This document shows positions 2,468-15,961 of a stretch of DNA of 37,475 bases, piece by piece (the stretch's first letter is position 1; each line of letters opens with the position of its first letter). The translations under genes were made by a program, and so were the position numbers. The stretch comes from a virus. The notes under the pieces are model-generated. The model saw only the letters and a list, made by a program, of their open reading frames with translations. It did not search any database and was not told the DNA's origin. The DNA is taken from positions 1-37,475 of the IMG/VR virus record IMGVR_UViG_3300020183_000224. One strand, given 5' to 3'.

Positions 2468-2470
2468 CAA

Positions 2471-2477
2471 TATTTAT
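2471..2477 (+). promoter_or_regulatory. putative late promoter motif TATTTAT
   Basis: The motif lies only 4 nt before the ATG at 2482, the same geometry as at 4273-4284. The two sites share AATATTTATTA followed closely by the ATG. If it works as a -10 element the transcript would be almost leaderless. Confidence 0.4.
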
Positions 2478-2481
2478 TAGT

Positions 2482-3039
2482 ATGATACGATTAAAGCAAT
2501 TGCTGATGGAATGGACGGGCGAATCCTGGAATTCCTGTGCACATTGGGCGGAAACCAAAGCCAAATGGGATGGGGGAAAAACGGACAATGGTCGCATTCG
2601 ACCCAAAATCGATATTGAAAAATCCGACGCTGCATTTCGACTTGCATATACAGGACCGAAAAGCGGTTGGGCCGTATCGCATGCCAATCGCAGCAGTGGA
2701 GATACTTTGCATCAAATATTCAACGTGTTGGTATGCGAATGCAATCCATGGTTAAAGGATCAATCGCTGCGGCCCGACATTGAAAACGTTGCAATTACCA
2801 GTCAAGTCAATAAAGGTACATACAATGTAACAATCACAATACCAATGCTTGCAGAAGCCGATGACGCTAAGCATTGGCAGATCAATCGTAGAGGCGGTAT
2901 GGGCCATGATCCGGGTGCAAATAGCATTCTAAATGCAACGCGCAACGAGCCCAATCTGCAAGGTCCCGTACGTTTCAACGTTGACCCAGGTAACATTACT
3001 GAATACATGGTGTGTTATACTTTATCAAAAAAGACTTGA
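2482..3039 (+). CDS. putative head-internal protein with capsid-targeting leader
   Basis: A 185-residue protein of unknown fold. Its first ten residues, MIRLKQLLME, resemble the T4 capsid-targeting sequence: a short basic and hydrophobic helix ending in L-x-E, where the T4 prohead protease gp21 cuts. The remaining sequence is mixed, with several Trp, a GGMGHDPGAN turn near residue 140, and no membrane segment. There is no Shine-Dalgarno site, and a late-type motif ends 4 nt upstream; the start is supported by the match of its first residues to those of the genes at 4796 and 4373. The next gene follows after 4 nt and has a leader of the same kind. Packaging into the head is an inference from the leader, not a known property of this protein. 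Confidence 0.65.
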   Translation: MIRLKQLLMEWTGESWNSCAHWAETKAKWDGGKTDNGRIRPKIDIEKSDAAFRLAYTGPKSGWAVSHANRSSGDTLHQIFNVLVCECNPWLKDQSLRPDIENVAITSQVNKGTYNVTITIPMLAEADDAKHWQINRRGGMGHDPGANSILNATRNEPNLQGPVRFNVDPGNITEYMVCYTLSKKT

Positions 3040-3043
3040 CGTC

Positions 3044-3547
3044 ATGATACAATTAACGCAACTTGTAACAGAAATAACTTTAGGCGGGGTGACTCCTTAT
3101 GCAACCCAGTTTACCTGGATCAAAAACTCGAGAAACTATCGCGAAGCCGAATTTCAAGCAGATGGTGTACGCATCACTCTGGCAATGGTGGATCAAGGTG
3201 CACAACAATGGGCATTTGCCATGTTGACGCCTACCCAAGACGGTGAAGGCCATACTGTGGCGCATGACCGAAGCGCAGCAGCCGGACGCGTCAATTACCT
3301 GCGTCTCATGAGTACCGCGTTGGAAGCCCTCTTAGATTTTGCAACACAATGGCAACCTGCAAGCATCGACATAACGGGGTCTGACACTAGCAGTGGGGAC
3401 AAGGAAGCCCAAAAGACACGCATATATCGCGCCTTGTTAGCAGCAAACATGACACGCATCACTACGGCAGGATATCGCGTCTTGGATCGGCCCGCGGGTC
3501 TTTGGTTGGTGCGAGCCGGCATAGCTACAACACGAAAGGAGTCCTGA
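3044..3547 (+). CDS. putative head-internal protein, 167 aa
   Basis: The reading frame is open upstream to 2933, but that would overlap the preceding gene by about 107 nt. The ATG at 3044, 4 nt after the preceding stop, gives the leader MIQLTQLVTE, like those of its neighbours, so it is preferred. The 167-residue product is a mixed alpha/beta protein with no membrane segment. Its second half, with TSSGDKEAQKTRIYRAL then GYRVLDRPAGLWLVRA, has a helix-then-strand pattern reminiscent of small phage proteins with acyltransferase-like folds, but no catalytic motif supports that. Codons here are GC-richer than in the tail genes. Likely cotranscribed with the gene at 2482. Confidence 0.65.
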   Translation: MIQLTQLVTEITLGGVTPYATQFTWIKNSRNYREAEFQADGVRITLAMVDQGAQQWAFAMLTPTQDGEGHTVAHDRSAAAGRVNYLRLMSTALEALLDFATQWQPASIDITGSDTSSGDKEAQKTRIYRALLAANMTRITTAGYRVLDRPAGLWLVRAGIATTRKES

Positions 3548-3605
3548 AAGGACGCTATTATGGGGTAACGGGCGTACTAACGTACTAGTTTATATGGTAT
3601 TGCAA

Positions 3606-3612
3606 TATTTAT
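3606..3612 (+). promoter_or_regulatory. putative late promoter motif TATTTAT
   Basis: TATTTAT followed by TAAAAAA, 16 nt before the ATG at 3629. Part of the family of motifs seen before late genes on both strands. Confidence 0.45.
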
Positions 3613-3628
3613 TTAAAAAAGATATATC

Positions 3629-4180
3629 ATGAAAAAACTTAAGGATATTTTATTGGAAGGGTATGCGTGGGAACGTAAACCAGATGGATCTTTACCTACC
3701 CTTAAGGATGCTATAGCAACACACGCAGCCAATATAGCCGAATCGGAGAAAAATATTAGTGATTTAGAATATGCAATTAAACAACATGAAGCTGATAATC
3801 ATGTTTATGATAAAACTAAAATAACAAATATATACAATCAATTGCCTAATTCAGATCAAGAACAAGCTAAAAAGAAATATCCAAAATATTTTGGCAACCC
3901 GAAAAGATGGCAAGATTCAGATGGCGACGGTAAATGGTATGAGCCGGGACAAGATGTAAAAGAAATTACAGAAGGTCATACTGATCATGGTGTATTGGAT
4001 TTAGTTTCAGAGGCTGAAGATATATTGCAACGTTTGCGAAGCAATATGGCTACTAATAGTGTTTTGCAACGTGAAGAAAAAATGGGATATCTTCGTGCAT
4101 TTGATGAATTATTAGACTTATTAAGCGAATTAAGACAGCCAAAACTTTTTCCAAACTTTTTTCCTACCGAAATGGAATAA
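3629..4180 (+). CDS. putative head-internal protein with GYAWERKP module
   Basis: A 183-residue hydrophilic protein starting MKKLKDILLE, a capsid-targeting-like leader ending in L-L-E, followed at once by GYAWERKP. The same leader plus GYAWERKP and a spaced LPTL recur in the gene at 4373, so the two share a duplicated N-terminal module while the rest differs. Residues 96-101 read DSDGDG within a segment resembling a calcium-binding EF-hand or dockerin loop. The C-terminal third is helical (VSEAEDILQRLRSN and onward). A late-type motif precedes it by 16 nt and an intrinsic terminator lies 46 nt after the stop. Delivery in the capsid is inferred from the leader; the function of the body is unknown. 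Confidence 0.7.
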   Translation: MKKLKDILLEGYAWERKPDGSLPTLKDAIATHAANIAESEKNISDLEYAIKQHEADNHVYDKTKITNIYNQLPNSDQEQAKKKYPKYFGNPKRWQDSDGDGKWYEPGQDVKEITEGHTDHGVLDLVSEAEDILQRLRSNMATNSVLQREEKMGYLRAFDELLDLLSELRQPKLFPNFFPTEME

Positions 4181-4226
4181 AGATGCCTGCTACCTTAGGC
4201 GGAACATTTCGAGGCAAATGTTTAAG

Positions 4227-4251
4227 AGTGCGTCTTTGGGCGCACTTTTTT
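4227..4251 (+). terminator. intrinsic terminator
   Basis: AGTGCG (4227-4232) pairs with CGCACT (4241-4246) around an 8-nt loop, with a run of six T residues at 4246-4251. It separates the gene ending at 4180 from the next late-type motif at 4273. Confidence 0.75.
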
Positions 4252-4272
4252 ACTGTAAAATGATACTAGCAA

Positions 4273-4279
4273 TATTTAT
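4273..4279 (+). promoter_or_regulatory. putative late promoter motif TATTTAT
   Basis: Lies 22 bp after a terminator and 4 nt before the ATG of a 30-residue membrane peptide (4284). It starts the unit that includes the genes at 4373 and 4796. Confidence 0.45.
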
Positions 4280-4283
4280 TAAT

Positions 4284-4376
4284 ATGAATAGGTTATTTGC
4301 ATTTATACAAGGTAGCATTGCAATAGTTGTTGCTGCGTTATATAGCGTATATGAAATTATTAAAGGACATCGATGA
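4284..4376 (+). CDS. tiny single-pass membrane peptide, 30 aa
   Basis: This 30-residue reading frame starts 4 nt after a late-type motif and ends in TGA, which overlaps the next start codon as ATGA (4373-4376). The peptide has one hydrophobic stretch, roughly FAFIQGSIAIVVAALYSVY, flanked by Arg near the start and Lys, His and Arg at the end, so a single membrane helix is likely. The start-stop overlap suggests translational coupling to the 139-residue gene downstream. It could be a genuine membrane peptide (holin-like or host-modifying) or a leader peptide. It is too short to assign to a family. Confidence 0.5.
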   Translation: MNRLFAFIQGSIAIVVAALYSVYEIIKGHR

Positions 4377-4792
4377 AATTAAAGACATTATTAGAAGGAT
4401 ATGCTTGGGAACGTAAACCTGGTAAAGGATTGCCTACATTAGCCGAAGTAGAAGCACAGCACCGTAAAAATTTAACAGAAGACGAAACTGATTTTTTAAC
4501 ATCAATTGACGCTTTAAGTACAGCTTGTAAAGAAGCTCAAACAGCAATGGCTTCTGCAGTACGAAATTTAGATTTCGGAACATCGGATGATGCTGCTACA
4601 GCAAAAAAGGCATTAACACAAAATGTCAATACCGTTATGGATGCTTTATGCATGTATGTTGATGGAATTAAAAAATTGTATGTCGAATATCCTAATCAAT
4701 CTTTAGAAGATTATGTTACCGACGGTACCGATATTTTTAAGTTGGTGCCGGCCGATGGCGGCGAAGGTACTGGAAAATTAAATTTTTACTAA
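4373..4792 (+). CDS. putative head-internal protein, GYAWERKP paralogue
   Basis: A 139-residue protein starting MKLKTLLE, then GYAWERKPGKGLPTL. This repeats the N-terminal module of the gene at 3629, with the L-L-E site placed two residues earlier. The remainder is mainly helical and unrelated by eye to its paralogue, ending in a short Gly-rich tail (DGGEGTG). The start overlaps the stop of the upstream membrane peptide (ATGA), and AAAGGA a few bases upstream can serve as a ribosome binding site. The next gene begins 3 nt after its stop. By analogy with T4 internal proteins it would be cut after Glu-8 and carried in the head; this is inference. Confidence 0.7.
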   Translation: MKLKTLLEGYAWERKPGKGLPTLAEVEAQHRKNLTEDETDFLTSIDALSTACKEAQTAMASAVRNLDFGTSDDAATAKKALTQNVNTVMDALCMYVDGIKKLYVEYPNQSLEDYVTDGTDIFKLVPADGGEGTGKLNFY

Positions 4793-4795
4793 TAT

Positions 4796-6271
4796 ATGAT
4801 ACGTTTAAAAACACTCTTATTAGAAGCAAAACTATCAGATAAATTACATGTATTATTTGTTACTGATCATGATTTAGATCGACGTCGCGGCTTTGCTCGA
4901 CAATTAATTAACAATCAAGTAATTACCGGAGATATACGTACTGCCGATAAAGGCAGTGTTAAAGAACTTAAAGATCTTGTAATACATCATGTATCGACAC
5001 ATTATGATTTAGTTGTCGTGTTTACTCGCGGTATATATGAAAAAAATAAAAATCAAGAAGTTCATAGTATAATTGATAATCTTCGAGGCATAATTGAACA
5101 TTGCAAATCACTTAAAATACCTATAGTATTAAATACTATACCATCTGTGCGATTTATTAAACCAAATATTAAGAAAAAATTAAATATCCATTTTTCATTA
5201 GCAGAAGATTTAGAAACTGATACTTGGATTCGTAAACATGCCGATTATGTACTCGAAACCGATTCATTTACAGATGATGTATTTTTTGACAAAAATAATA
5301 TTCAGTTAGATCGCCCAGCACATATAATTTTATATGATGAAATGTTAAAAATTTTAAATGATTTGGATAATTCAATCGATGTTGATACAGAACAAGAAAA
5401 AATAGAAGATGACGAATTACATTTGACACCCGGATATATTGGTATTATTATGGAGGATGTGCATAAATTTTTACAAAGATTAGGATATAAAATTGACTCG
5501 TCTGAAATACTTAGTATGGAATTTGGACCATCTACAACTGAAGCATTAACTGATTTTAAAATGAAACATGGTCTTAATGCATCTGAAGTAATTGATGATG
5601 AAACCATGGATGCATTGCGAATTGCTAAACCTAAAAAACAAATATCACCAAAAGGACGTGTAATAATTCCATCGGGAATCGGAACAGACGAAACTGCAAA
5701 TATTGAACTTTTAATTGATTATATGAATGATCAAGGTATTATAAATCCATTTACTCAAATAGGAATATTGTCTGTTATAGGCAAAGAATCAGGTTTTATT
5801 CCGCAAGATGAAATAGGATATGGCGGTACACCTAATGATCGCATTCGTGAAATATTTGGAAATAGAGTACCTACAGATGATGATGAATTGGATACGTTAA
5901 AATCTGACGATGAAGCATTCTTTAATCGCGTATATGGTGGCCGCTTCGGTAATGCATCAGATGAAGGATATTTATATCGTGGTCGTGGTTTTAATGGTCT
6001 AACATTTAAGGATAACTATCAAAAGTATGGTAGTATTGTTGGTGAAGATTTAGTAGGAGACCCCGAAGCTGCAAATAATCCTGACGTTGCTGCAAAAATT
6101 GCCGCGGCATTTTTTACAAAGAATAAACCAGCTGCCGCATTGCCTAAATTTACTAGTAAATCCAATGCTACAACATATTTTGTAAATCTTAATGCGGGCG
6201 GTACAGGTCGCGCGCCAGATCATAGTCGAGCATTAGAATGGGCTAGTAGATTTGAAATAGAATTTGAATAA
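4796..6271 (+). CDS. multidomain cell-wall hydrolase (PG-binding plus GH19-like lysozyme)
   Basis: A 491-residue protein with three parts behind a targeting-like leader MIRLKTLLLE. Residues 17-190 form an alpha/beta domain (HVLFVTDHD, DLVVVFTRG, KIPIVLNTIP) that recalls SGNH-type folds but lacks a clear GDS serine motif. Residues 212-280 match a peptidoglycan-binding repeat of the PG_binding_1 type (VHKFLQRLGYKI, FGPSTTEALTDFK). Residues 300-480 look like a GH19 or chitinase-like lysozyme, with GKESGF around the likely catalytic Glu-331 and GRGFNGLT near 396-403 followed by NYQKYG. It would cut peptidoglycan during entry or lysis. The leader suggests a virion-carried enzyme rather than a classical endolysin; no signal peptide or holin gene lies beside it. 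Confidence 0.75.
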   Translation: MIRLKTLLLEAKLSDKLHVLFVTDHDLDRRRGFARQLINNQVITGDIRTADKGSVKELKDLVIHHVSTHYDLVVVFTRGIYEKNKNQEVHSIIDNLRGIIEHCKSLKIPIVLNTIPSVRFIKPNIKKKLNIHFSLAEDLETDTWIRKHADYVLETDSFTDDVFFDKNNIQLDRPAHIILYDEMLKILNDLDNSIDVDTEQEKIEDDELHLTPGYIGIIMEDVHKFLQRLGYKIDSSEILSMEFGPSTTEALTDFKMKHGLNASEVIDDETMDALRIAKPKKQISPKGRVIIPSGIGTDETANIELLIDYMNDQGIINPFTQIGILSVIGKESGFIPQDEIGYGGTPNDRIREIFGNRVPTDDDELDTLKSDDEAFFNRVYGGRFGNASDEGYLYRGRGFNGLTFKDNYQKYGSIVGEDLVGDPEAANNPDVAAKIAAAFFTKNKPAAALPKFTSKSNATTYFVNLNAGGTGRAPDHSRALEWASRFEIEFE

Positions 6272-6275
6272 CATA

Positions 6276-6282
6276 TATTTAT
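6276..6282 (+). promoter_or_regulatory. putative late promoter motif TATTTAT
   Basis: TATTTATATTAAAA followed by AGGAAAAC as a ribosome binding site, before the ATG at 6300. Confidence 0.5.
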
Positions 6283-6299
6283 ATTAAAAGGAAAACATA

Positions 6300-6674
6300 A
6301 TGTTTGAAAAATTAGTTTCTACATTAATGGCATCACGAGACCAAGCTCATATATTTCATTGGCAAACAACAGGCCCCGGGTCATTTGCTGCACATATGGC
6401 ACTAAATGCATATTATGATGCTATTCCGGATATGGTTGATGCATTAGTTGAATCATATCAAGGAAAATATGGAATTGTTATGGGTTATGAACCTGCTGAA
6501 CGTTTTGATGAATACTCTGCAGATACCGCCATTAAATATTTTAAAGCGTTATCTACATTTATAGAACGCGTATATGCAAAATTTCCTAAAGATGACACAA
6601 ACATTATCAATCAATTAGATGCTTTCAAAGATTTAATTTACACAACAATATATAAATTGGAAAATTTATCATGA
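6300..6674 (+). CDS. Dps/ferritin-like four-helix protein (DUF5856-like)
   Basis: A 124-residue helical protein. The segment HIFHWQTTGPGSFAAHMAL followed by YYDAIPDMVDALVES matches the first two helices of Dps and ferritin-like proteins, where His-Trp in helix A and His then Asp/Glu in helix B lie near the ferroxidase site. Related small proteins of the DUF5856 type are frequent in T4-like phages. It is shorter than a bacterial Dps (about 150-170 aa) and lacks the later conserved Glu pattern, so iron oxidation is not assured. A late-type motif and AGGAAAA precede it, and its stop overlaps the next start by 4 nt (ATGA). A virion or DNA-protecting role is possible. Confidence 0.7.
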   Translation: MFEKLVSTLMASRDQAHIFHWQTTGPGSFAAHMALNAYYDAIPDMVDALVESYQGKYGIVMGYEPAERFDEYSADTAIKYFKALSTFIERVYAKFPKDDTNIINQLDAFKDLIYTTIYKLENLS

Positions 6675-7255
6675 AAATTTTTGATATTAAAAATCCTAAA
6701 CACGTACAAATTCTTAAAGAAGAATTGCATAGAGCTCGTCATATTCTTCGAGAATATAATGAAGCTGAAATTTGGAAACGATTAACCGTACAACAACGTG
6801 AAGAATTATTATCTACTGTAGATGACGATATGGGCCCAGATTTTGCTGATGAATATGCAGAAACGGATTGGATGCAAATACCAGATGCTGTTACTAATCG
6901 TATTAACTTAAGTAGATATGTTGCCGACTACGCTCGATCTGTAGATAAGAGTGCATTAATGTATGCACGTGGTATTTTTGATATCATTAATGATGAAGCT
7001 CGTTTTAAAAATACCAAACAACTTCAAGATTTCATTGCTAAACAAATTGGATCTACAGCTACAGATGCAGAATCATTGAAAATGGCATTAATGCAATATG
7101 CAAGAGATAATTCTGCTAAAATGATGAAATTAAATATTGACACTCAAAAAATGGCTCAATCAACAACCCCTATAAGTATAGGAAAACTTAGTGGTGCTAC
7201 ACCCCCTAGCAGAAATCCAGGATATATGGGCGGAGCTGAATGGACTGGTGACTAA
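6671..7255 (+). CDS. unknown protein, 194 aa, probable virion component
   Basis: A 194-residue, mostly helical protein. Its first 35 residues are basic and amphipathic and contain LKE (15-17) and LRE (26-28), either of which could be a prohead-protease site, though the match is weaker than in the genes at 2482-4796. A WKRLTVQQREELL segment near residues 35-50 and a Gly/Pro-rich tail (SGATPPSRNPGYMGGAEW) are notable. No membrane segment. It overlaps the Dps-like gene by ATGA and the next gene by TAATG, so the three are translationally coupled. Function unknown. Confidence 0.65.
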   Translation: MKIFDIKNPKHVQILKEELHRARHILREYNEAEIWKRLTVQQREELLSTVDDDMGPDFADEYAETDWMQIPDAVTNRINLSRYVADYARSVDKSALMYARGIFDIINDEARFKNTKQLQDFIAKQIGSTATDAESLKMALMQYARDNSAKMMKLNIDTQKMAQSTTPISIGKLSGATPPSRNPGYMGGAEWTGD

Positions 7256-7464
7256 TGATAACAAAACCGGGGTTTTTGGCATTATATGTAATTGAATTAC
7301 AAGGTAAGCAAGAAAAAAACGAGCCAGAATTACGGTTTATTAATAAAAATCATATCATGCAAATACGTCAAGATGGCGAAGATGTAATAATAGAACTGTC
7401 TGACTATGTAAAATTAAAGATACGCAATGAAAACATTCATATTTTAATGGATCGTTTTGTTTGA
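7255..7464 (+). CDS. small beta-rich protein of unknown function, 69 aa
   Basis: A 69-residue protein with alternating hydrophobic residues (FLALYVIELQG, VIIELSDYVKLKIR) suggesting a small beta barrel or sheet. No cysteine, membrane helix or known motif. The start overlaps the upstream stop in TAATG, a typical coupled junction. A late-type motif begins just after its stop (7471), so it closes the unit that starts at 6276. Function unknown. Confidence 0.6.
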   Translation: MITKPGFLALYVIELQGKQEKNEPELRFINKNHIMQIRQDGEDVIIELSDYVKLKIRNENIHILMDRFV

Positions 7465-7470
7465 TGTAAA

Positions 7471-7477
7471 TATTTAT
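7471..7477 (+). promoter_or_regulatory. putative late promoter motif TATTTAT
   Basis: AATATTTATATAAAA followed by AAAAAAGG as a ribosome binding site, before the ATG at 7499. Confidence 0.5.
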
Positions 7478-7498
7478 ATAAAAATAAAAAAGGTTAAC

Positions 7499-7684
7499 AT
7501 GGCATCACAAGAAATTTTCGATCAAATCGAACAACATTGGTTAGTATTTAAAGAAAATCATGAAAGATTTACCAACAAAGGGATAAAAGCTGCGGGCGTT
7601 AGAGCACGTAAAGCAATTAATGAAGTTAAAAAATTAGCAAGTAAATATCGTTCAACGCAATTAGCAGAATCTAAATCAGAATAA
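7499..7684 (+). CDS. histone H1 (Hc1)-like DNA-binding protein, 61 aa
   Basis: The frame is open from 7457, but ATG 7499 is preferred because AAAAAAGG lies 5 nt upstream and the earlier ATG overlaps the late-type motif. The 61-residue product has an acidic, helical first half (EIFDQIEQHWLVFKENHERF) and a basic second half with KGIKAAGVRARKAINEVKK. That segment closely follows the KGNKAAGxRxR...L pattern of bacterial histone H1-like Hc1 proteins common in Bacteroidota, which bind DNA non-specifically. It lacks the long Lys/Ala tail of some members. In a phage it could help compact DNA or be packaged with it. The family call is from memory of the pattern and is reasonably strong. Confidence 0.7.
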   Translation: MASQEIFDQIEQHWLVFKENHERFTNKGIKAAGVRARKAINEVKKLASKYRSTQLAESKSE

Positions 7685-8481
7685 TGCAAAAACAACAAGA
7701 AATATTAGTATATCATACGTTGCGAACCATGCTTAAGGAGCAAGCTGATGCTGCGGTTGCAGGTAAATCATCTATCGAAACAAATGATATTAATACATCT
7801 AGAGGAGAATCACCATTTACTCCTGCAGAAAAACGATTTTTAGGAAAATTTGATGCCTATGGGTCACAACACATAGGCATCATTTATTCTTTGTCAGATA
7901 TTGGCGTACGAGAATTTATTGCTAGAAGCGGTAAAGATTTTAATTTAACGCCTGCAATTCTTTTAAAACTGCTACGAGACAAATTAATTAAAATTGTTCC
8001 ATATACAGGCTGGGGTCGTGATGATTCATATACAATTGAATTGCAGTTACCATTAGAAGATATTGTCGGTTTTGGTAAGGAAGATGAAAAAAAAGCTGAA
8101 AAATCATCGGATGCAGCTGCCGGCGCCGGCGGTGCATCGGCAGCATCTCCTACACCAGAAGTAGCATGGACTGTTAAATATGGTGATATCTTATCAGAAT
8201 CTGCAAAAATTGCTAAACAGCTAATTTCTGAAAAACACCATAATAAACATGTTGTTAATATAGAAAAGTCAAGGATACTAAAAAAGGTACCTAGTCAATA
8301 TATTAAACATTTAGAACAATTAATTACATCAATTGGTAAAAAGAAATATTCTGCTGCAGAAAAACAAAGATTAATTGCAGATATTTTAGATAATTTATTT
8401 GTTAATTTTAAATTAAATGATAAACAAATTGAAAAATCATATGAAATGCATAAAAAACAAAAACGTTTACATAAAAAATAA
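7684..8481 (+). CDS. unknown protein, 265 aa, possible head-internal protein
   Basis: A 265-residue protein with an N-terminal amphipathic helix ending MLKEQ (LKE at 17-19, a possible prohead-protease site). A compact helical part follows (residues about 45-135, including FTPAEKRFLGKFDAYG), then an Ala/Gly linker (DAAAGAGGASAASP, near 143-156), then a very basic helical C-terminal half ending KKQKRLHKK. The basic tail suggests nucleic-acid contact. The start overlaps the H1-like gene in TAATG, so the two are coupled and may act together on DNA. No family was recognised. Confidence 0.65.
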   Translation: MQKQQEILVYHTLRTMLKEQADAAVAGKSSIETNDINTSRGESPFTPAEKRFLGKFDAYGSQHIGIIYSLSDIGVREFIARSGKDFNLTPAILLKLLRDKLIKIVPYTGWGRDDSYTIELQLPLEDIVGFGKEDEKKAEKSSDAAAGAGGASAASPTPEVAWTVKYGDILSESAKIAKQLISEKHHNKHVVNIEKSRILKKVPSQYIKHLEQLITSIGKKKYSAAEKQRLIADILDNLFVNFKLNDKQIEKSYEMHKKQKRLHKK

Positions 8482-8483
8482 TT

Positions 8484-8511
8484 TTGATATTTCAATTTAA
8501 TTTATTATATT
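8484..8511 (+). promoter_or_regulatory. sigma70-like promoter
   Basis: TTGATA at 8484-8489 and TATATT at 8506-8511, spaced 16 bp, lie in the 63-bp gap before the ATG at 8545. It opens a run of tightly packed small genes and is less certain than the cassettes at 141-1553. Confidence 0.4.
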
Positions 8512-8544
8512 ACAAATATAGTTATAAACCATAAAAATAAAAAA

Positions 8545-8754
8545 ATGTCGTATTACACAGCAAAAGTTCAATTAATTGACACAGTTGATACCCCTAAGGG
8601 TACTAAAGAAAAGAAAACAACTGAAACATATCTTGTAGAAGCACTTTCAGTAACTGAAGCAGAAGCTAAAGTTGTTGAAGATTTTAAAGGTTATACTTTT
8701 GATTTTGAAGTTAAATCAGTTTCGGCAAGTAAAATCATTAAAATTATCGAATAA
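8545..8754 (+). CDS. DUF4494-like small protein
   Basis: A 69-residue protein whose pattern, a beta strand, then a Lys/Thr-rich turn, then ETYLVEALSVTEAEAKVVEDF, follows DUF4494 proteins. In that family a conserved YLVxALSxTEAEAR motif leads into the C-terminal strand. DUF4494 is mostly found in Bacteroidota and their phages, which supports the host inference. The biochemical role of the family is unknown. It is the first gene after a sigma70-like promoter and is joined to the next by a TAATG overlap. Confidence 0.65.
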   Translation: MSYYTAKVQLIDTVDTPKGTKEKKTTETYLVEALSVTEAEAKVVEDFKGYTFDFEVKSVSASKIIKIIE

Positions 8755-9029
8755 TGGCATATCGACCAGGGCACACTGTCGTTGTTACTCAAGATGGAGT
8801 AAATCGAGTAGGCGTAATATTAGATCAATATTTGATTAATAAATCTATTGTATATGATGTATTATTGGAAAATCGATCTGCAGCATGTATAATTACTACG
8901 AATCCTAAACATTCAACATATCTTAATAAACATTTAACAACTATGTTATGTGATACAGATATGATTCAGACAACTATTCCTTATAAGCAATTACTTGCAA
9001 ATGATGCATTACCAATTACTAAATCATAA
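8754..9029 (+). CDS. small protein of unknown function, 91 aa
   Basis: A 91-residue protein. The N-terminal half is beta-rich, with HTVVVTQDGVNRVGVILDQ resembling a small SH3-like or KOW-like barrel; two cysteines (near 45 and 66) are too far apart to suggest a zinc site. No membrane segment or signal peptide. It is coupled to the upstream gene by TAATG, and the next gene begins 3 nt after its stop. No family was recognised. Confidence 0.6.
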   Translation: MAYRPGHTVVVTQDGVNRVGVILDQYLINKSIVYDVLLENRSAACIITTNPKHSTYLNKHLTTMLCDTDMIQTTIPYKQLLANDALPITKS

Positions 9030-9032
9030 TCA

Positions 9033-9314
9033 ATGAAGCTTGAAAGTTTAAAAAAACGAGTTCAAAAACGTTATCCTGGATGTATTGCAATAATGGGTCA
9101 TGATGGCGAGTACTATATAGTGCATAATGACATAAGTTTGCATGATGTGTTTATGATACCAGGATGTGAAACTGAAACAGAAGCTTGGCAAGTTATATCA
9201 CAATTTGTTCAAGTAGAACAGAGTATTAATCGAACACATCCTTTAAAGGCAATGATATCCGAACATAAGAAGTTACAGAATCGAGAACGAATATCAAATA
9301 GAATTCATGGATAA
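9033..9314 (+). CDS. small protein of unknown function, 93 aa
   Basis: A 93-residue protein with a basic N-terminus (MKLESLKKRVQKRYPG), a beta-rich centre (IAIMGHDGEYYIVHND) and a basic helical C-terminus. There is no membrane helix or recognised motif. The N-terminus has a faint likeness to the targeting leaders upstream but no clear L-x-E cut followed by a small residue, so it is not included in that group. Its last codons overlap the methyltransferase start by 8 nt, suggesting coupled expression. Confidence 0.6.
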   Translation: MKLESLKKRVQKRYPGCIAIMGHDGEYYIVHNDISLHDVFMIPGCETETEAWQVISQFVQVEQSINRTHPLKAMISEHKKLQNRERISNRIHG

Positions 9315-9972
9315 AAAACAATTGAAACAAAGCATTCTAGATAATTTAATAAATTCTGACGCCGAATTGGATCGTTGGGATACATTACAACCAACAGATG
9401 GTGATTATATGATGAATAGTCCAATTCCGGTAGGTTATAACACAACCGCAGAACAACGCTTTTTAATGCAAAATTTATTAGTAGGATTCAGCGGCGGTTC
9501 GTTATTAGATATAGGATGCGGTCGATGTGACTTATACGGCATAGCTCGCGATTTGGCTGCGTTAAACAATGACGTAGTTTTATATAGTGCCATAGACCAT
9601 AATCCTATAATGACGCAGTTAGGCGAACAAAAATGGGGCTTAAATAAAGTTAATGTAGGTGCATTTGAAACTGCTAAACTTGACAAGCACGAATGGGTTG
9701 TTGCTTCCGGCGTATTTACTCCACGAAGGTGTGAAACGGAAGATGATGATTTGCGTAAATTATTTGATGATATTGATATGTTGTATAACTTATCAACACA
9801 AGTAGTTTCATTTAATTTAATGAATCCGATAAATACATATCATCATGAAGGATTCTTTTATGTACATCCTGGATTAGTTATGGACATGTTGATTGAAAAA
9901 TATCAATTTGTTAATATTCGATGCAATTATTCAAAAGACGTATATACAGTATTAATTTATAAATTACAATAA
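9307..9972 (+). CDS. class I SAM-dependent methyltransferase
   Basis: A 221-residue protein with the SAM-binding motif LLDIGCG at residues 66-72, the glycine-rich loop of Rossmann-fold methyltransferases. An acidic residue follows at the end of the next strand in YSAIDHNP (motif II region). Then come WVVASGVF as a likely motif IV strand and an FFYVHPG segment. It lacks the NPPY/DPPY or PC motifs of DNA amino- or cytosine-methyltransferases, so DNA modification is not indicated; a protein, RNA or small-molecule substrate is possible. It overlaps the upstream gene by 8 nt. Such orphan methyltransferases are common in large marine phages, usually with unknown targets. Confidence 0.75.
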   Translation: MDKKQLKQSILDNLINSDAELDRWDTLQPTDGDYMMNSPIPVGYNTTAEQRFLMQNLLVGFSGGSLLDIGCGRCDLYGIARDLAALNNDVVLYSAIDHNPIMTQLGEQKWGLNKVNVGAFETAKLDKHEWVVASGVFTPRRCETEDDDLRKLFDDIDMLYNLSTQVVSFNLMNPINTYHHEGFFYVHPGLVMDMLIEKYQFVNIRCNYSKDVYTVLIYKLQ

Positions 9973-9976
9973 AAAC

Positions 9977-10369
9977 ATGACAAACAGTATTAATCAGCCG
10001 TGGGCTATTTCAGAAAATCATGTTAATCGTTATGGCGAAACTTGGGCAAATTTGGATTTTATAATTGAAACCAAAATTTCTGCAGAAAATTTTAAAACAG
10101 ATCCAATGAATTGTACAATTGGACATTTGAATATTTTTAATCAACAAATTCATATGCGATATAAAGATTTAATTGCATATTCTAAATCTGTAAGCACTGC
10201 AGCTGCTAACGTTTATGCTAGCAAACCTAATAAAAATGACACATTTCCGATTGATGTTAAAGGACGTACATTGGTTTTACGAAAACACGAAATTGGTAAA
10301 TTATCTCAAACATTGTCAGATGCATTGGATATTGCTATTAGGAGATATGAACTAGGTTTATATTTATAA
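9977..10369 (+). CDS. unknown protein, 130 aa
   Basis: A 130-residue, mainly helical protein without membrane segments or cysteine clusters. Two stretches stand out: YGETWANLDFIIET near the N-terminus and LSQTLSDALDIAIRRYELG at the C-terminus. The start lies 4 nt after the methyltransferase stop and has only weak ribosome-binding sequence. It is likely in the same operon as the genes from 8545 to 11576. Function unknown. Confidence 0.6.
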   Translation: MTNSINQPWAISENHVNRYGETWANLDFIIETKISAENFKTDPMNCTIGHLNIFNQQIHMRYKDLIAYSKSVSTAAANVYASKPNKNDTFPIDVKGRTLVLRKHEIGKLSQTLSDALDIAIRRYELGLYL

Positions 10370-10381
10370 TAAAATTGCATC

Positions 10382-10570
10382 ATGCGTAACGCAACATACG
10401 TATATTTTTTTAAAACGGATACGACTCAAGAAATTATTGGCAGTGTAACTGCCTCTAATATAAATGAAGCCCGAGAAAAAATATGCATAATAAAACAGTT
10501 GCCTGAAGCAGAAATCGATCGGTTATTTGTTATTAAACAAAAAAGGAGGAATCATGCAGACAATCTTTGA
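10382..10570 (+). CDS. small protein of unknown function, 62 aa
   Basis: A 62-residue protein with a beta-alpha-beta pattern (YVYFFKTD, NINEAREKICIIKQL, DRLFVIKQKRRN) and a basic C-terminus. It carries no known motif. Its final 17 nt overlap the next gene, and the strong AAAAGGAGG ribosome binding site of that gene lies inside its last codons. Function unknown. Confidence 0.55.
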   Translation: MRNATYVYFFKTDTTQEIIGSVTASNINEAREKICIIKQLPEAEIDRLFVIKQKRRNHADNL

Positions 10571-11015
10571 CAAAATCTTCGTAACAAAAGCTGAATATTC
10601 AATAATTCAAACAATGCATGCATCCGAACGAATGTGTTGGGTATTTGATACATTTGATGCAACCACGATGCAAACTAAAGGTTTAGATTTATCTTCGTTT
10701 TTTGAAGAAGTTCGAGATAATTTAGACAAATATGCAGCAACTCCTATAGTAAACGAAGAACCAACAGCTGAAGAATTACCGTCTGTAAAGGATGGTAATA
10801 TGGATTTTGTCGATGTAATGATTGATGATGAAAATATCATGATTGGATCAAACAGTTTACGTGCAGTAAGACACGTAACGCAAAAATTCATTGAATCGGG
10901 CTATATGCTTCGTCGAGATTTAGTAACAGAAAAAATGTTTCGTAAAGACAAAATAACAAGATATATGCGAGTATTTCGCATCATTAATTACACAAATTCG
11001 ATGTGTCTTAATTAA
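10554..11015 (+). CDS. unknown protein, 153 aa
   Basis: The frame is open from 10527, but ATG 10554 is chosen because AAAAGGAGG (10541-10549), one of the best Shine-Dalgarno sites in the window, lies 4 nt upstream. The 153-residue protein has an acidic middle section (NEEPTAEELPSVKDGNMDF) and a basic, helical C-terminus with RHVTQKFIESGYMLRRDL, which could contact nucleic acid. No recognised family. The next gene starts 6 nt after its stop. Confidence 0.65.
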   Translation: MQTIFDKIFVTKAEYSIIQTMHASERMCWVFDTFDATTMQTKGLDLSSFFEEVRDNLDKYAATPIVNEEPTAEELPSVKDGNMDFVDVMIDDENIMIGSNSLRAVRHVTQKFIESGYMLRRDLVTEKMFRKDKITRYMRVFRIINYTNSMCLN

Positions 11016-11021
11016 TTTATA

Positions 11022-11576
11022 ATGGCAAAAAAACAACAAGTTCCTGATACTATCATCAAACAGTTTGAAAAACCTCAATTTAAAATTAATGATGCGGTAT
11101 ACTTTACTTGGTTAGGTGCAAAAAAATATGGTTATGTTAAAACGTTTAAAACAAGTTCTTGGGGTATTCAATATTTGGTTGAATCGGATAATACAAAGTA
11201 TCCATGTGGTATTTCAATCAAAGGGTATAAAACAGCGTATACAACAGGATGCATCAACATCGATGAAACAAGATCTATTGGACAAGATGAAATCAAGAGA
11301 CGCATCCAAACTGGACATTCAAGCACATATACAGAGCTTTTTACAGACACCCGAAGGGCAGAAAATAAAAGCGGAAATGAGTCTGCAAGTAGCAAACATG
11401 TATCTACAAGAAATTCTAAAACAATCAAATCAACCCGAACTAACAATGCGGCAAAGCATGTTGTTAAACCTAGCGCTAATGGAAATATTGCAGGAATTGG
11501 AAAAAAACGAAAAGATTCTGAACTTGACAGTGCAATCCAACGTCAGCGAGATTTCTTAAACGGCTTTATCAAATAG
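11022..11576 (+). CDS. unknown protein with small beta domain and basic tail, 184 aa
   Basis: The first 85 residues look like a folded beta domain, with DAVYFTWLGAKKYGYVKTF, WGIQYLVES, YPCGI and TTGCINIDETR. The remaining hundred are Ser/Thr/Lys/Asn-rich and probably disordered, ending in a charged helix (SAIQRQRDFLNGF). From about 11240 onward the codons depart from the A/T-ending preference of the first part, and an open frame of 147 codons overlaps in the +1 register (11116-11559). Its last 8 nt overlap the stop end of the convergent gene at 11569. It closes the rightward operon begun at 8545. Function unknown. Confidence 0.65.
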   Translation: MAKKQQVPDTIIKQFEKPQFKINDAVYFTWLGAKKYGYVKTFKTSSWGIQYLVESDNTKYPCGISIKGYKTAYTTGCINIDETRSIGQDEIKRRIQTGHSSTYTELFTDTRRAENKSGNESASSKHVSTRNSKTIKSTRTNNAAKHVVKPSANGNIAGIGKKRKDSELDSAIQRQRDFLNGFIK

Positions 11577-12804
11577 GTTTATTAACTAGATGCCATAATG
11601 CTAAATTTTTAACATACCTACTTATATCGCCTGGCGAAACTTGCGGCGATGCCCCAGCTTTATTCATTTCTATCGTCCATTGATTTAAAGTAGGAAATTT
11701 TTCTGCATTAGCATGTTTTGCTAACAATCGTTTTCCATTACCATTTAATTCTTTGAATAACGAAGAAGGGCCTGGGCCAGATTTAATCATGATAGCAGTT
11801 TTCATTCCTAAATTTACATTATTTAGTGCACGACGATATGCAGTATCTATAGAATCTTTTGAAATGTTGCCTTTAAAAATAAACCAAGTATTTGCAACAT
11901 CGTCGCCCACAGCCATATATGTTAACGTAGGATTTGATATTACAGGTTTAAATAGTTTTGTTTTTTCTTTTGATTTCGATGCATTTGATTTTAACCTATC
12001 TCGCATTTTTTTCAAATCGTTTTTAGACGGCCAATATCCTTTATTACCAGATTTCTTTTTTGCACGTTCGATGACTTTTAATGCTTTAGCTTCTGCACTG
12101 TTTGGATTCATTCTTACCGCTCGAATATACTCATCAGCAGTAAGATTACCTAATTTAAATTCTTGCAAATATAATTTATGTAGTTCGTCAATTGTTTTTT
12201 CAAACGCTGCAGGATTATTGGCAAGTTGTTTGATTTGTTCTTTTTCTGCAGTAGTTGTTAATTGATTTTTTTTATCTCCTTTGATAATTCGTTGAATAAT
12301 ACTTTGACGCTTACTCGTACTATTTAACGATGTTATAGTATCATGTAATAATTCTGCTTTATCGCCTTTATAATTTTTTATACCATCTATTACTGCTTTT
12401 GCTAATCTAGTTGCTCGACGAGCTTTGTACCACCATACAAATCCAACCCCCGTTGCGACAACGAGCGCTGCTGCAGCAATGAGATAATATCGCACCGGCC
12501 AGCCCGAAAGCATCATAGGTTCATCGCCTGCTGTATTTAAGTATTTATCTCCCGTTGTCTCTAATCCATCCGGTTTCCAACAAAATGCACTTTTTATAGT
12601 TGCATTATCAAACGGCCCCGTCGGATCTAAATCTAACTCCGCAGATTTTGATGGGTATTGTTTATTAAACCATGCTCTAAATGCATCGCCTTTTTCTTGA
12701 TTCCAATCATCAGGTAAAATACAAGGACCTGATGCTTCTGTTAATCGTATTTTATTAGACAATATCATACTTTCTAATAATGTCATATCGTAATTATATT
12801 TCAT
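11569..12804 (-). CDS. membrane-anchored virion protein with LxE leader, 411 aa
   Basis: A 411-residue protein on the minus strand. The N-terminus contains RLTEA with L-x-E at 21-23, and also LLE at 9-11. Residues 32-75 (GDAFRAWFNKQYPSKSAEL, then LDPTGPFDNATIKSAF) match a short domain repeatedly seen in marine phage virion proteins. Residues 106-125 form a clear transmembrane helix followed by WWYKARRATR. The C-terminal 280 residues are basic and helical with no recognised motif. It is last in a four-gene leftward operon, 8 nt after the gene at 14156-12813. A role at or across the host membrane is inferred from the helix and the leader; enzymatic function is unknown. Confidence 0.7.
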   Translation of the reverse strand: MKYNYDMTLLESMILSNKIRLTEASGPCILPDDWNQEKGDAFRAWFNKQYPSKSAELDLDPTGPFDNATIKSAFCWKPDGLETTGDKYLNTAGDEPMMLSGWPVRYYLIAAAALVVATGVGFVWWYKARRATRLAKAVIDGIKNYKGDKAELLHDTITSLNSTSKRQSIIQRIIKGDKKNQLTTTAEKEQIKQLANNPAAFEKTIDELHKLYLQEFKLGNLTADEYIRAVRMNPNSAEAKALKVIERAKKKSGNKGYWPSKNDLKKMRDRLKSNASKSKEKTKLFKPVISNPTLTYMAVGDDVANTWFIFKGNISKDSIDTAYRRALNNVNLGMKTAIMIKSGPGPSSLFKELNGNGKRLLAKHANAEKFPTLNQWTIEMNKAGASPQVSPGDISRYVKNLALWHLVNKPI

Positions 12805-12812
12805 ATAAAATC

Positions 12813-14156
12813 CTATTTAATTGTAGATATATCCTTTCCCGTTACCTCTTTATAAAAATCTGCTATTCTTTGATTATTTTTTTGTTCTAAACTAGTATTC
12901 ATGATATATTGATTGTATATTTTATCCCATATGGAATTAACTGCAACATTAGTAGCTGCAGAATATTTCCCCCACATAATGCTAAAATTTGCTATATTAA
13001 ACGTGCCGTTTGCTAAGCCAATAATTATTTTATCTTTTGCAGTAAGTCGTCCGAACCCCGCAGCTGCAGTTTCAGCGCCTTTCATTTTCATTACTGCTTT
13101 CATTGCCGCTCGTTGAGCACTAATTCGAGCTGCTTCGTCAAATATTGGTTTAATAAGATTTTTTGCTCCAAATAATGCTTTTACTATTTGTTGTTCGAAT
13201 TGAGAAAATTTAGCATTTTTGCTAGCAAGTTTTGCTCCTAATTTTATTAACTTTTTTGACCCTAATTTAGCCATAAGCTCTACTAATTGAGGTAGTTTTC
13301 CAGCAAGTTTAAATACACCTGGCATAATAGAAAGTATACCTTGTACTCCCGCTTGATAATATTCACCTTCTGATGCGTACCATCCAGCATTTATTAAACC
13401 AATACCCATTGAAATCAAATAACCATATGGACCTGCTATCGACGTAAGAATTTCTAACACTATCAAGATTTCATGTCGATATTCTACAGCAAAGTCAACA
13501 ATAGCTTTTGTTGTACTAGATTGCCATATTTTTTTTTCTAATGATGCAATGTATTTAATTTTATTGTATGTTTTTTCTAATATACTAAGCGTAGCAGTTC
13601 CAGCATTAATTTTTTTTAAATGTGTAATAATTTTATTTAAACGACTTTCTGTTTTCCAATGATTGCGATTATGTAATAATTCTAATCCAATGGTACCAGC
13701 TGGAGATAATTTTGTCGATATGTTATGTTGTGCTAAACTTTTAACATAACTATCTGTATACGTACCGAAGAAACTAATAATGTATTGTCCTATCCCACGA
13801 CCTCCAGATAACTTTTGTAACTCTCGTTGAGTTTCATCGAATTCTTTTTTATCCTTGATTGCAAGTATAGCTCGGGTTGCATTGTTTTCGTTATCTGATA
13901 TGGTGCTTTTTGCATCATATATAATTCTAGCAATCCATTGAGCCTGCGTTCCTTTAAGTGGCATACCATATCCGCCAGTAAGTCCTGGAATAGGTCTAAG
14001 TCCCCGTTTAGCTAAAATGTCCTTTTCTAGTTGCTTGTTTTGCTGTTGCCGTTTTTGATTAGCACGAATTGTATCGATATTATCAAATGACGGTTGTTCT
14101 TGCAAATGCATGACATGTTTCATTAATATATTAATTTGTTGTTCGGATAATTTCAT
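12813..14156 (-). CDS. toxin-like or membrane-active virion protein with LxE leader, 447 aa
   Basis: A 447-residue protein beginning with an amphipathic helix that ends MHLQEQ (L-x-E at 18-20). Residues 75-130 (ARIIYDAKSTISDNENNATRA, then FDETQRELQ) resemble annexin-like repeats found in phage structural proteins. Residues 220-300 form a hydrophobic, Gly-rich core, with LVLEILTSIAGPYGYLISM-like sequence and YYQAGVQGILSIMPG. This resembles the pre-toxin regions of polymorphic toxins. The C-terminal third is basic and helical. It overlaps the upstream gene by 4 nt (ATGA), so it is translationally coupled. Pore formation or effector delivery is a hypothesis; no catalytic motif is visible. Confidence 0.65.
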   Translation of the reverse strand: MKLSEQQINILMKHVMHLQEQPSFDNIDTIRANQKRQQQNKQLEKDILAKRGLRPIPGLTGGYGMPLKGTQAQWIARIIYDAKSTISDNENNATRAILAIKDKKEFDETQRELQKLSGGRGIGQYIISFFGTYTDSYVKSLAQHNISTKLSPAGTIGLELLHNRNHWKTESRLNKIITHLKKINAGTATLSILEKTYNKIKYIASLEKKIWQSSTTKAIVDFAVEYRHEILIVLEILTSIAGPYGYLISMGIGLINAGWYASEGEYYQAGVQGILSIMPGVFKLAGKLPQLVELMAKLGSKKLIKLGAKLASKNAKFSQFEQQIVKALFGAKNLIKPIFDEAARISAQRAAMKAVMKMKGAETAAAGFGRLTAKDKIIIGLANGTFNIANFSIMWGKYSAATNVAVNSIWDKIYNQYIMNTSLEQKNNQRIADFYKEVTGKDISTIK

Positions 14157-15961
14157 TGCGCAAATTTTGTACCTTCAAAGAAATCGATTGCATCTTGTCC
14201 CGTTAATTTACCTCTTTTTGGTTTATTAAATGCATCCATTTTAGTATAATCAATATAATATGCATTAACCCAATATTTTGGATCGGTTGAGATTGTTTCA
14301 GATGTATCGCTAATACCGGCAGCTACTGCAGCTTTGATCAAGGCTTTCAAATCACCTTTAGCAGTTGCCGTTACGGTCTTTGAAAGTAGCGGCTCGAAAT
14401 CTGCTTTAAATTGTTCGTAGTAAAAACTACCATTACCGGCTTTACTATATATAGCATCAGATAATGCTAAATTATTCACTTCTTTTAACCACGCAGCAAC
14501 ATCAGTTCCGGTTAATTGTGTAAACAACGGAGATGCAGCGTTTTTGAATTGTGCATAAATTAAATTTCCATTACGAGTATATCCTGTAGTATTTAAACGT
14601 CCTGCTTCATCAATACCCAAGACTCCTTTTGCACCTTTGTCCGCCAAATCACCAGTTGTTAGGTTGCCGGTATCTACTCCAAATGGTGCTATTGAAGTTT
14701 GAAATGCTTCTTTTTTCATACCTTTATATTCAGCTTCGATAACATTTTTAGTAAGGGCACCTTTGTTTATAGTTCCAATATCTTGACTTTTTGCATTTTC
14801 AATTGCGGTTGAAATGTCTCCATTTGCCCCAACAACATCCATTATTTTTTTATTAAGACCTGGCAAGTCTCCTTGTGAGTTACCGAAAGTCCAACCACCA
14901 CTTACACCTAAAAATATCTGGCCAGATGGCGTGCCATACAAAGCCCATTGCAACATTGCACCCTTTAAACCCAAATTTAATCTATAGTACTCCGTACGCC
15001 ACTCTGCAGATTTGTCATCAGGAAATTTTGTTTTATCTGGGTATTTCATTCTTGTCGAACCAGGTCCTTCATTGTATGCTCTTTGTGCATTACGTTGCAT
15101 TTCGGTATATGCATTATCAATAATATTTTTCCATTCAACGGTATCTTTTAAATAATCCATATCTTGACCAACCCCTAAACCGGCAGTATAACTTACTGAC
15201 CATTTAATATCTGGAGTACCAATCGGTGTAATAACTTTTTCCGTTCCTTCTTGCTTGGCTGTTATGAGAAATTGTCGAAACTCTTGACCAGTTAATGGTA
15301 CTACGACAATCGTTGCTTGAATAAGTTTGCTTTCTAAGTATTTTTTTACAGCTTCACCGCGCGCCGTTGCAAGGTATTCATTTCCATTAGTTTTAGCCCA
15401 CTCTACAGATTCGGGCGTTGGTTTGCCATTAGCATCATACTTTAAATTACCACCATAATCGTGATCTAATTTTTTATGCGAAGCTGGTACAGTACTCCCA
15501 GGAAAATCTCCGGGTCTTGGGGCTGTACTAGCTGGTGAAGGGGTTGCTGTAGATACAATTTCAATTATTGTTTTGCCATCTGGTACATTTAATTTAGCAC
15601 CTTGTTCAGTCAATTTAGTTATCAAGTTATCTAGTTCCGTTTGTAACGCTTTAGGATTTTTTACGCCCTTTTCCATTGTAACGAAATTATTATAAAATTC
15701 ATCTTCTAACGTTTCAGGCTCCGGATTAATTGGTATAAATTCTTGCGTTTTTGTTAAAATTACATTTTTATATGAGCCTCCTACTTTACTTTGCCATGCT
15801 TCAAATTCTCGATATGCATCGCCTTGTGCTTTTAATAGCGCAATTGCTGCAGCTTGTTTGTCACCTTGTTCTAGCAAATACTTATATACAAACAATTGCT
15901 TGTTTATATTTTTACCTCCAAATCGAAGTAAATTTTCTGCTAATATGCGTTCTAAATTCAT
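14153..15961 (-). CDS. virion protein with LxE leader and OmpA-like segment, 602 aa
   Basis: A 602-residue protein beginning MNLERILAEN (LAE at 7-9), with a second possible cut at YLLEQ (29-31). Around residues 110-215, IIEIVSTATPSP, then NEYLATARGEAVKKYLESK and ATIVVVPL, follow the strand-helix-strand pattern of OmpA-like peptidoglycan-binding domains with a Pro/Ser-rich insertion. The remainder has Gly-rich, beta-prone segments (GQIFLGVSGGWTFGN) and is unassigned. A late-type motif lies about 30 nt upstream on the minus strand. It is coupled to the next leftward gene by ATGA. An envelope-contacting, capsid- or tail-carried role is inferred. The OmpA match is degenerate, so confidence in it is moderate. 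Confidence 0.65.
   Translation of the reverse strand: MNLERILAENLLRFGGKNINKQLFVYKYLLEQGDKQAAAIALLKAQGDAYREFEAWQSKVGGSYKNVILTKTQEFIPINPEPETLEDEFYNNFVTMEKGVKNPKALQTELDNLITKLTEQGAKLNVPDGKTIIEIVSTATPSPASTAPRPGDFPGSTVPASHKKLDHDYGGNLKYDANGKPTPESVEWAKTNGNEYLATARGEAVKKYLESKLIQATIVVVPLTGQEFRQFLITAKQEGTEKVITPIGTPDIKWSVSYTAGLGVGQDMDYLKDTVEWKNIIDNAYTEMQRNAQRAYNEGPGSTRMKYPDKTKFPDDKSAEWRTEYYRLNLGLKGAMLQWALYGTPSGQIFLGVSGGWTFGNSQGDLPGLNKKIMDVVGANGDISTAIENAKSQDIGTINKGALTKNVIEAEYKGMKKEAFQTSIAPFGVDTGNLTTGDLADKGAKGVLGIDEAGRLNTTGYTRNGNLIYAQFKNAASPLFTQLTGTDVAAWLKEVNNLALSDAIYSKAGNGSFYYEQFKADFEPLLSKTVTATAKGDLKALIKAAVAAGISDTSETISTDPKYWVNAYYIDYTKMDAFNKPKRGKLTGQDAIDFFEGTKFAQ

Follow-up and report, generated by a model that had tools for sequence, protein, structure and literature searches.

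A modular N-terminal leader in the register of the T4 capsid-targeting sequence precedes diverse proteins in phages best described as Far-T4-like

The viral DNA analysed here, IMG/VR record IMGVR_UViG_3300020183_000224 (37,475 bases, hereafter the window), is a fragment of a larger phage genome and carries, between positions 2482 and 6271, five adjacent genes whose products begin with similar leaders of eight to ten residues. A first-pass annotation, made from the letters alone, had proposed that these genes form a modular set of packaged head proteins that share only a leader of the T4 capsid-targeting type. All five open reading frames (ORFs) were recovered with the positions and N-termini given there (Table 1; genes are named by their first position). 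The statement that the bodies behind the leaders are unrelated holds for all but the pair 3629/4373, which have a common N-terminal module (48% over 56 residues, E = 8e-8). As proposed, the leader is a genuine and modular feature, but the set extends far beyond five genes.

The leader follows the 10-residue consensus M-I-[RK]-L-K-x-[LI]-L-x-E, and shorter forms, the nine-residue MIRLKQILE and the eight-residue MKLKTLLE, also end in [LI]-x-E. Using the strict pattern M-x(1-3)-[LF]-x-x-[LIV]-[LIVMTA]-x-E, four leader ORFs were found at called starts in the window, where 0.10 were expected from shuffled N-termini, and 40/945 were found in eight pooled genomes and fragments, with 2.43 expected on the same basis; at internal methionine positions the pattern occurred in only 10/3408 cases. 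Searching with the leader alone, as the first-pass annotation had suggested, revealed that the set is large and modular and its bodies diverse: 39 that are not homologous to one another in 14 related contigs, and 101 further non-homologous ones in IMG/VR. Up to 12 leader genes occur in one genome, that of G024, a 159,586-base contig that is the closest near-complete relative of the window. A set limited to the five window genes was rejected, given the many more present across the eight genomes and fragments.

Conservation within the leader exceeds what the search itself imposed. Positions 4, 7, 8 and 10 were fixed by the search and positions 2, 3 and 5 were unconstrained, and amongst the 39 leaders the latter are nonetheless dominated by I2 (32/39), K/R3 (32/39) and K5 (29/39), corresponding to 2.3-2.6 bits. 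Information content is 2.3-3.8 bits within the leader, falls to 0.83 at position 11 and is about 0.3-0.5 thereafter. A DNA pattern encoding MIKLKx[hydrophobic]LxE was present in at least 120 IMG/VR contigs, compared with 13 for the same codons in another order and four for the reversed string, and an ORF of at least 60 amino acids was opened by 129 of the 139 leader matches listed, compared with 4 of 13 control matches. When leaders were chosen by residues 1-8 only, with the Glu codon omitted from the pattern, Glu was found at position 10 in 87/104 and at position 9 or 10 in 95/104. Since scrambled patterns are rare and Glu is kept in these 95 leaders, chance is excluded as the origin of the motif, and codon context was likewise ruled out by the shuffles, the internal methionine counts and the two scrambled patterns. 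Codon usage at the L, K and E positions of the leader equals that of the genome, implying selection on the protein rather than on the DNA.

The first 10 residues of the T4 internal protein IPIII suffice for packaging, with residues 4 and 7 required for targeting and 8 and 10 for processing, and the T4 prohead protease gp21 cleaves after L/I-x-E (PMC9026906). The leaders described here have hydrophobic residues at positions 4, 7 and 8, Glu at position 10, a terminal [LI]-x-E and unrelated mature parts behind one leader, so that both the T4 register and the cleavage rule are matched, in agreement with the capsid-targeting form claimed at first pass. T4 IPI-IPIII, together with the Alt propeptide, share this N-terminal location, spacing and lack of relationship between bodies, but the letters differ, MI[RK]LKx[LI]LxE here compared with MKTYQEFIAE in T4, and the cargo is far wider here and includes muralytic enzymes. 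When 22 T4 N-termini were scored on the leader matrix of the clade, the best was that of gp24 (MAKINELLRE), a gp21 substrate which, unlike internal cargo, is a vertex protein of the shell.

The search for a gp21-like protease called for by the first-pass annotation was positive in relatives that bear the same leader genes. A gp21-type Peptidase S77 was found in G001, G002, G003 and G024 (at 87996-88628 in the last) and in 15/26 other leader-bearing contigs no shorter than 40 kb, and the GELDHPE and GISSRG motifs, whose His and Ser we take to be catalytic, are kept in six aligned homologues. Among the matches listed, gp21 was present in 31/120 leader stretches; all 37 leader genes in gp21-bearing stretches lie on the gp21 strand and 16 of them start less than 500 bp downstream of it. 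A frequent gp21-linked leader gene, seen in several cases, encodes a protein family of the head-core type, and homologues of this gp21-adjacent core protein in G001, G002 and G024 have related N-termini. In the capsid proteins of the clade, of Flavobacterium phage immuto and of Microcystis phage Mel-JY01, Q[LI][VI]xE is conserved with A or S behind it; MAFFT places this [VI]-x-E site of the clade on the cleavage site of T4 gp23, FLTE65 followed by A. The 3044 leader had been singled out as the loosest match and does end in V-x-E, but its orthologues support it, and since V at the -3 position seems normal in the clade, as its capsid sites show, the doubt about V-T-E largely falls away.

The gp6-like baseplate gene of the window (25463-27343), used as a query, retrieved 80 IMG/VR loci. 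Amongst named phages, the capsid proteins closest to that of G024 belong to immuto (56%), Mel-JY01 (53%) and Rhodothermus phage RM378 (38%). The last of these serves as reference for the Far-T4 group (PMC4360716), for which Bacteroidetes are predicted as hosts (PMC7198788). From RM378 and the nearest capsid proteins, the window phage, an uncultivated relative of T4, is best called Far-T4-like.

Table 1. Leader genes, leaders, promoter-like elements and further candidates in the window
Feature	Position	Strand	Remarks
ATATTTAT promoter-like element	2470-2477	+	12 nucleotides before the 2482 start
2482 leader gene	2482-3039	+	185 amino acids, no known family
2482 leader, MIRLKQLLME	2482-2511	+	predicted cut after E10
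3044 leader gene	3044-3547	+	167 amino acids, distantly DUF6934-like
3044 leader, MIQLTQLVTE	3044-3073	+	predicted cut after E10
ATATTTAT promoter-like element	3605-3612	+	24 nucleotides before the 3629 start
3629 leader gene	3629-4180	+	183 amino acids
3629 leader, MKKLKDILLE	3629-3658	+	followed by GYAWERKPxGxLPTL module, about 3659-3736
ATATTTAT promoter-like element	4272-4279	+	about 100 nucleotides before the 4373 start; direct reading
4373 leader gene	4373-4792	+	139 amino acids
4373 short leader, MKLKTLLE	4373-4396	+	followed by 3629-type module, about 4397-4474
4796 leader gene	4796-6271	+	491 amino acids
4796 leader, MIRLKTLLLE	4796-4825	+	followed by N-terminal domain of no assigned family
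4796 enzyme part			PG_binding_1, residues 222-274; GH19-like muralytic domain, about residues 300-450
Weaker candidate, longer putatively cleavable N-terminus (MLKEQ)	7684-8481	+	homologues in nine relatives
Second-class leader gene	14153-15961	-	MNLERILAENLLRFGGKNI at 15905-15961; 602 amino acids, no family
Weaker second-class candidate	16032-17207	-	KKLLDINTKNLTES; 391 amino acids; own upstream ATATTTAT; read against the class consensus

A search seeded with the 2482 and 3044 genes identified orthologues in G024 with 83% and 92% identity, respectively, and the leader is kept in the 2482 orthologues of G024, G025 (83%) and G007 (45%). M1, I2, R3, K5, L7, L8 and E10 are invariant in four homologues of the 2482 family. 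The 3044 start sits within a longer ORF opening at 2933; M1, I2 and E10 are invariant in seven aligned members of its family, in which the leader ends in LLTE, LVTE, LLSE, LLAE or ILTE. DUF6934 matches are weak in the 3044 product (0.046) and an orthologue (0.013), and exceed the cut-off only in a more distant leader protein (3.9e-7). AlphaFold2 (AF2) models gave mean predicted local distance difference test (pLDDT) scores of 73 for the 2482 product, with 28 in the first block, and 74 for the 3044 product, and neither model had a match at E <= 0.001 in a fold search of the PDB. Secondary structure had suggested that 3044 is GNAT-like, but this assignment was abandoned because no fold match backed it. 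The guanine-plus-cytosine content of the region 2482-3547 is approximately 47-50%, compared with approximately 27-36% at 3501-12000, a contrast that possibly reflects recent acquisition or a different history; the region 501-2000 is likewise high, at 45-47%.

The module common to the 3629 and 4373 products, W[DE]RxxGxPLPTL, is also found on leader genes located 16-501 bp downstream of gp21 in other phages. A small hydrophobic ORF (MNRLFAFIQGSIAIVVAALYSVYEIIKGHR, 4284-4376) lies between the promoter-like element and gene 4373. The 4796 product is, on its domain matches, a muralytic enzyme with a peptidoglycan-binding and a catalytic domain: it matches PG_binding_1 above the cut-off (1.1e-6), Glyco_hydro_19 below the Pfam cut-off (4e-4) and PHROG 181, endolysin (2.8e-26). 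Family profile searches gave no match to a T4 internal-protein family for any of the five window proteins. Immediately downstream, 6300-6674 encodes a DUF5856 protein (2.7e-17; a starvation-inducible/Dps-like regulator in PHROG), and four relatives have this gene conserved beside their leader cluster (83-90%).

Comparison of relatives indicates that the cargo behind the leader is exchanged. Relatives of 4796 keep the leader and N-terminal domain and swap the catalytic domain, the enzymes behind this N-terminal part being Phage_lysozyme plus VanY in G001, Phage_lysozyme2 in G026, Phage_lysozyme in G005 and a glucosaminidase with an M15-like match in G007; at the same position in G024 the leader is followed by M23 and Phage_lysozyme2. 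Elsewhere the leader precedes SET, NUDIX, ART-PolyVal, zeta-toxin/AAA kinase, GNAT and RimK domains, and leader-gene content differs between close relatives. On one metagenomic contig, G025 (L128:3533-4663, minus strand), which may be misassembled, the homologues of 2482 and 3044 form a single ORF with the junction AIKLKPILTE, which has no Met codon; that the junction keeps L-x-E without a start is as a cleavage site predicts.

Several other leader proteins were observed. In L099 (2480-2923) the leader of a phage protein is followed by a SET domain (1.9e-9). In Mel-JY01 (PP395634, 60276-62718) there are leader paralogues beginning MIKLKSLLQEIISDRVWHLTT and similar, ART-like (ADP-ribosyltransferase-like) by eye only, and a Pfam search with the one paralogue tested found no family. 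The Mel-JY01 genes at 60276, 60923 and 62056 have the leaders MIKLKSLLQE, MIKLKSLLKE and MIKLMSLVTE, respectively. A leader protein conserved across the clade, family A3 (L088:13094-13639 and seven orthologues), contains GDNGRVYEI and LDFxxDNIMxWNGKLVMIDW motifs, and from these and a weak match to T7 gp0.7 (0.0087) it appears kinase-like; a PDB profile search gave no support for this assignment, which, if confirmed, would make A3 a packaged kinase. No relatives of 3044, of this kinase-like family or of a gp21-adjacent WDR protein were found amongst named phages. A leader with a zinc-ribbon-like CxxC segment occurs in G003 (53584-54255) and G002 (7704-8480), and in G003 the body joined to it resembles 3044, which points to shuffling of the domains that follow the leader.

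Taken together, we consider it probable (about 0.83) that this leader of 8-10 residues is a T4-type capsid-targeting sequence, which would load its proteins into the head, be cut by the head protease and have its cargo mostly ejected with the DNA. Late in infection, the leader proteins would be made alongside structural genes, and hydrophobic residues 4 and 7 would bind the prohead core, so that unrelated proteins are enclosed as the shell closes. The gp21-type S77 protease would then cut after the Glu of [LIV]-x-E, freeing the mature protein from the core, and DNA would be packed in around the proteins so released. Most of these would be ejected with the DNA at the next infection, and in the new host they may act on its wall, its nucleic acids, its proteins or its defences.

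Several observations weigh against this interpretation. The leaders of T4 IPII and IPIII score -6.6 on the leader matrix of the clade, so the likeness lies in the register, not in the letters. No gp21 is present in the 37,475 bases of the window record, because this record is a fragment. Three of the five mature window proteins are acidic (isoelectric point 4.5-5.1) whereas T4 internal proteins are basic, which rules out reading the window set as small basic internal proteins. The 4796 product may simply be an endolysin of the usual kind, and the cultured relative immuto (Immutovirus), whose host is LMO8, has few leaders of the MI[RK]LK type; a literature search on immuto yielded no paper on proteomics, nor was any virion proteomics of the clade found.

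Other functions for the leader were weighed. It might dock proteins to another part of the virion, such as the tail tube or baseplate, or to the exterior of the core, without cleavage or ejection, the muralytic members then being tail lysins. The enzymes found in 4796 relatives, Phage_lysozyme2 ('phage tail lysozyme'), M23, glucosaminidase and VanY, are often tail-borne, but the leader genes adjoin gp21 and include a head-core family, a Glu held strictly two residues behind L/I is the rule of a protease and needless for docking, and NUDIX, RimK, SET and ART cargo has no obvious role in a tail, so we regard docking as unlikely. That every leader protein belongs to the scaffold or core of the prohead and is cut up and expelled at maturation rather than delivered to the host would account for the core protein next to gp21 being a common leader family, and T4 core proteins are indeed cleaved and mostly lost (PMC9026906); this is rendered improbable by the unrelated nature of most bodies, the presence of several enzymes of host-directed type and the variation in content between close relatives. 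Less probable still is a signal acting in the cytoplasm, where M-I-K-L-K-x-L-L-x-E could form a short amphipathic helix (modelled by AF2 at low confidence) that binds membrane, a chaperone or a protease adaptor, since this leaves the conservation of Glu, the drop after it, the T4 register and the gp21 neighbourhood unexplained. Finally, a DNA or translation element, such as a start-codon context or recombination hot spot, that encodes similar residues by accident fits the AT-rich codons after ATG but is contradicted by the genome-like codon usage, the rarity of scrambled codon orders and the in-frame G025 fusion, which keeps IKLKPILTE without a Met start, and is very improbable.

The promoter-like element ATATTTAT(A/T) is probably the late promoter of the clade: upstream of clade genes ATATTTAT is strand-asymmetric (213 versus 31), it precedes leader operons and also the genes for portal, core and sheath, and it occurs within 100 nucleotides of 38% of leader genes compared with 21% of other genes. 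As it is often located only 12-30 nucleotides before the start codon, transcripts would be very short or leaderless. In the window, ATATTTAT(A/T) is also found upstream of 6300, 7499, 10382, 14153, 16032, 19109, 22175, 24484, 27375 and 35990.

A second class of leader, with the consensus ENMLRFGTKNLSE in N-termini resembling M(K/N)..IL.ENMLRFGTKNLSE, was found on 17 clade proteins, one of them encoded at 14153-15961 in the window. It holds two [LI]-x-E sites, and two of the 17 proteins are hybrids of the form MI[RK]LKNILAENM.RFG.KNLSE (starting MIRLKN or MIKLKN); we infer that this class is a longer version of the same signal. Homologues of the weaker candidate at 7684-8481 have differing N-termini, ending in hydrophobic-x-E-Q/E/A.

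Amongst known systems, T4 Alt is a packaged and injected ADP-ribosyltransferase (PMC5512222), and Ip1, Ip2 and Ip3 of T4 are counter-defence effectors that differ in the GmrSD enzymes they block (PMC12373910). Injected effectors such as Alt, P1 DarA/DdrB and the N4 virion RNA polymerase include ART, kinase and lysozyme domains whose delivery with DNA is known or predicted (PMC5512222); these effectors are long multidomain proteins, whereas those described here are separate proteins with one short tag that is predicted to be cleavable. Signal-based identification of ip genes in T-even phages has already been described (PMC12373910), so this kind of signal is known, but the consensus, phage group, gene number and cargo range appear new in the literature searched. 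Far-T4 phages (RM378 and Lake Pavin contigs) and Immutovirus hold the nearest named capsid proteins, and no description of a capsid-targeting set in either was found in that literature.

Equivalents of the T4 internal proteins are hard to find outside T-even phages because their bodies share no sequence. The leader is legible from DNA alone and would permit direct listing of candidate injected proteins in uncultivated T4-like phages, and with its matching protease it constitutes a short tag system open to cell-free or reporter assay. Whether Far-T4-like phages load each virion with a large, fast-turning set of effectors through an interchangeable 10-residue ticket is, in our estimation, evenly balanced; the set would comprise muralytic enzymes, ADP-ribosyltransferases, NUDIX, SET, GNAT and kinase-like proteins and many proteins without a family. 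If this is so, proteins injected for host takeover and counter-defence could be catalogued by their leader across a major group of uncultivated phages.

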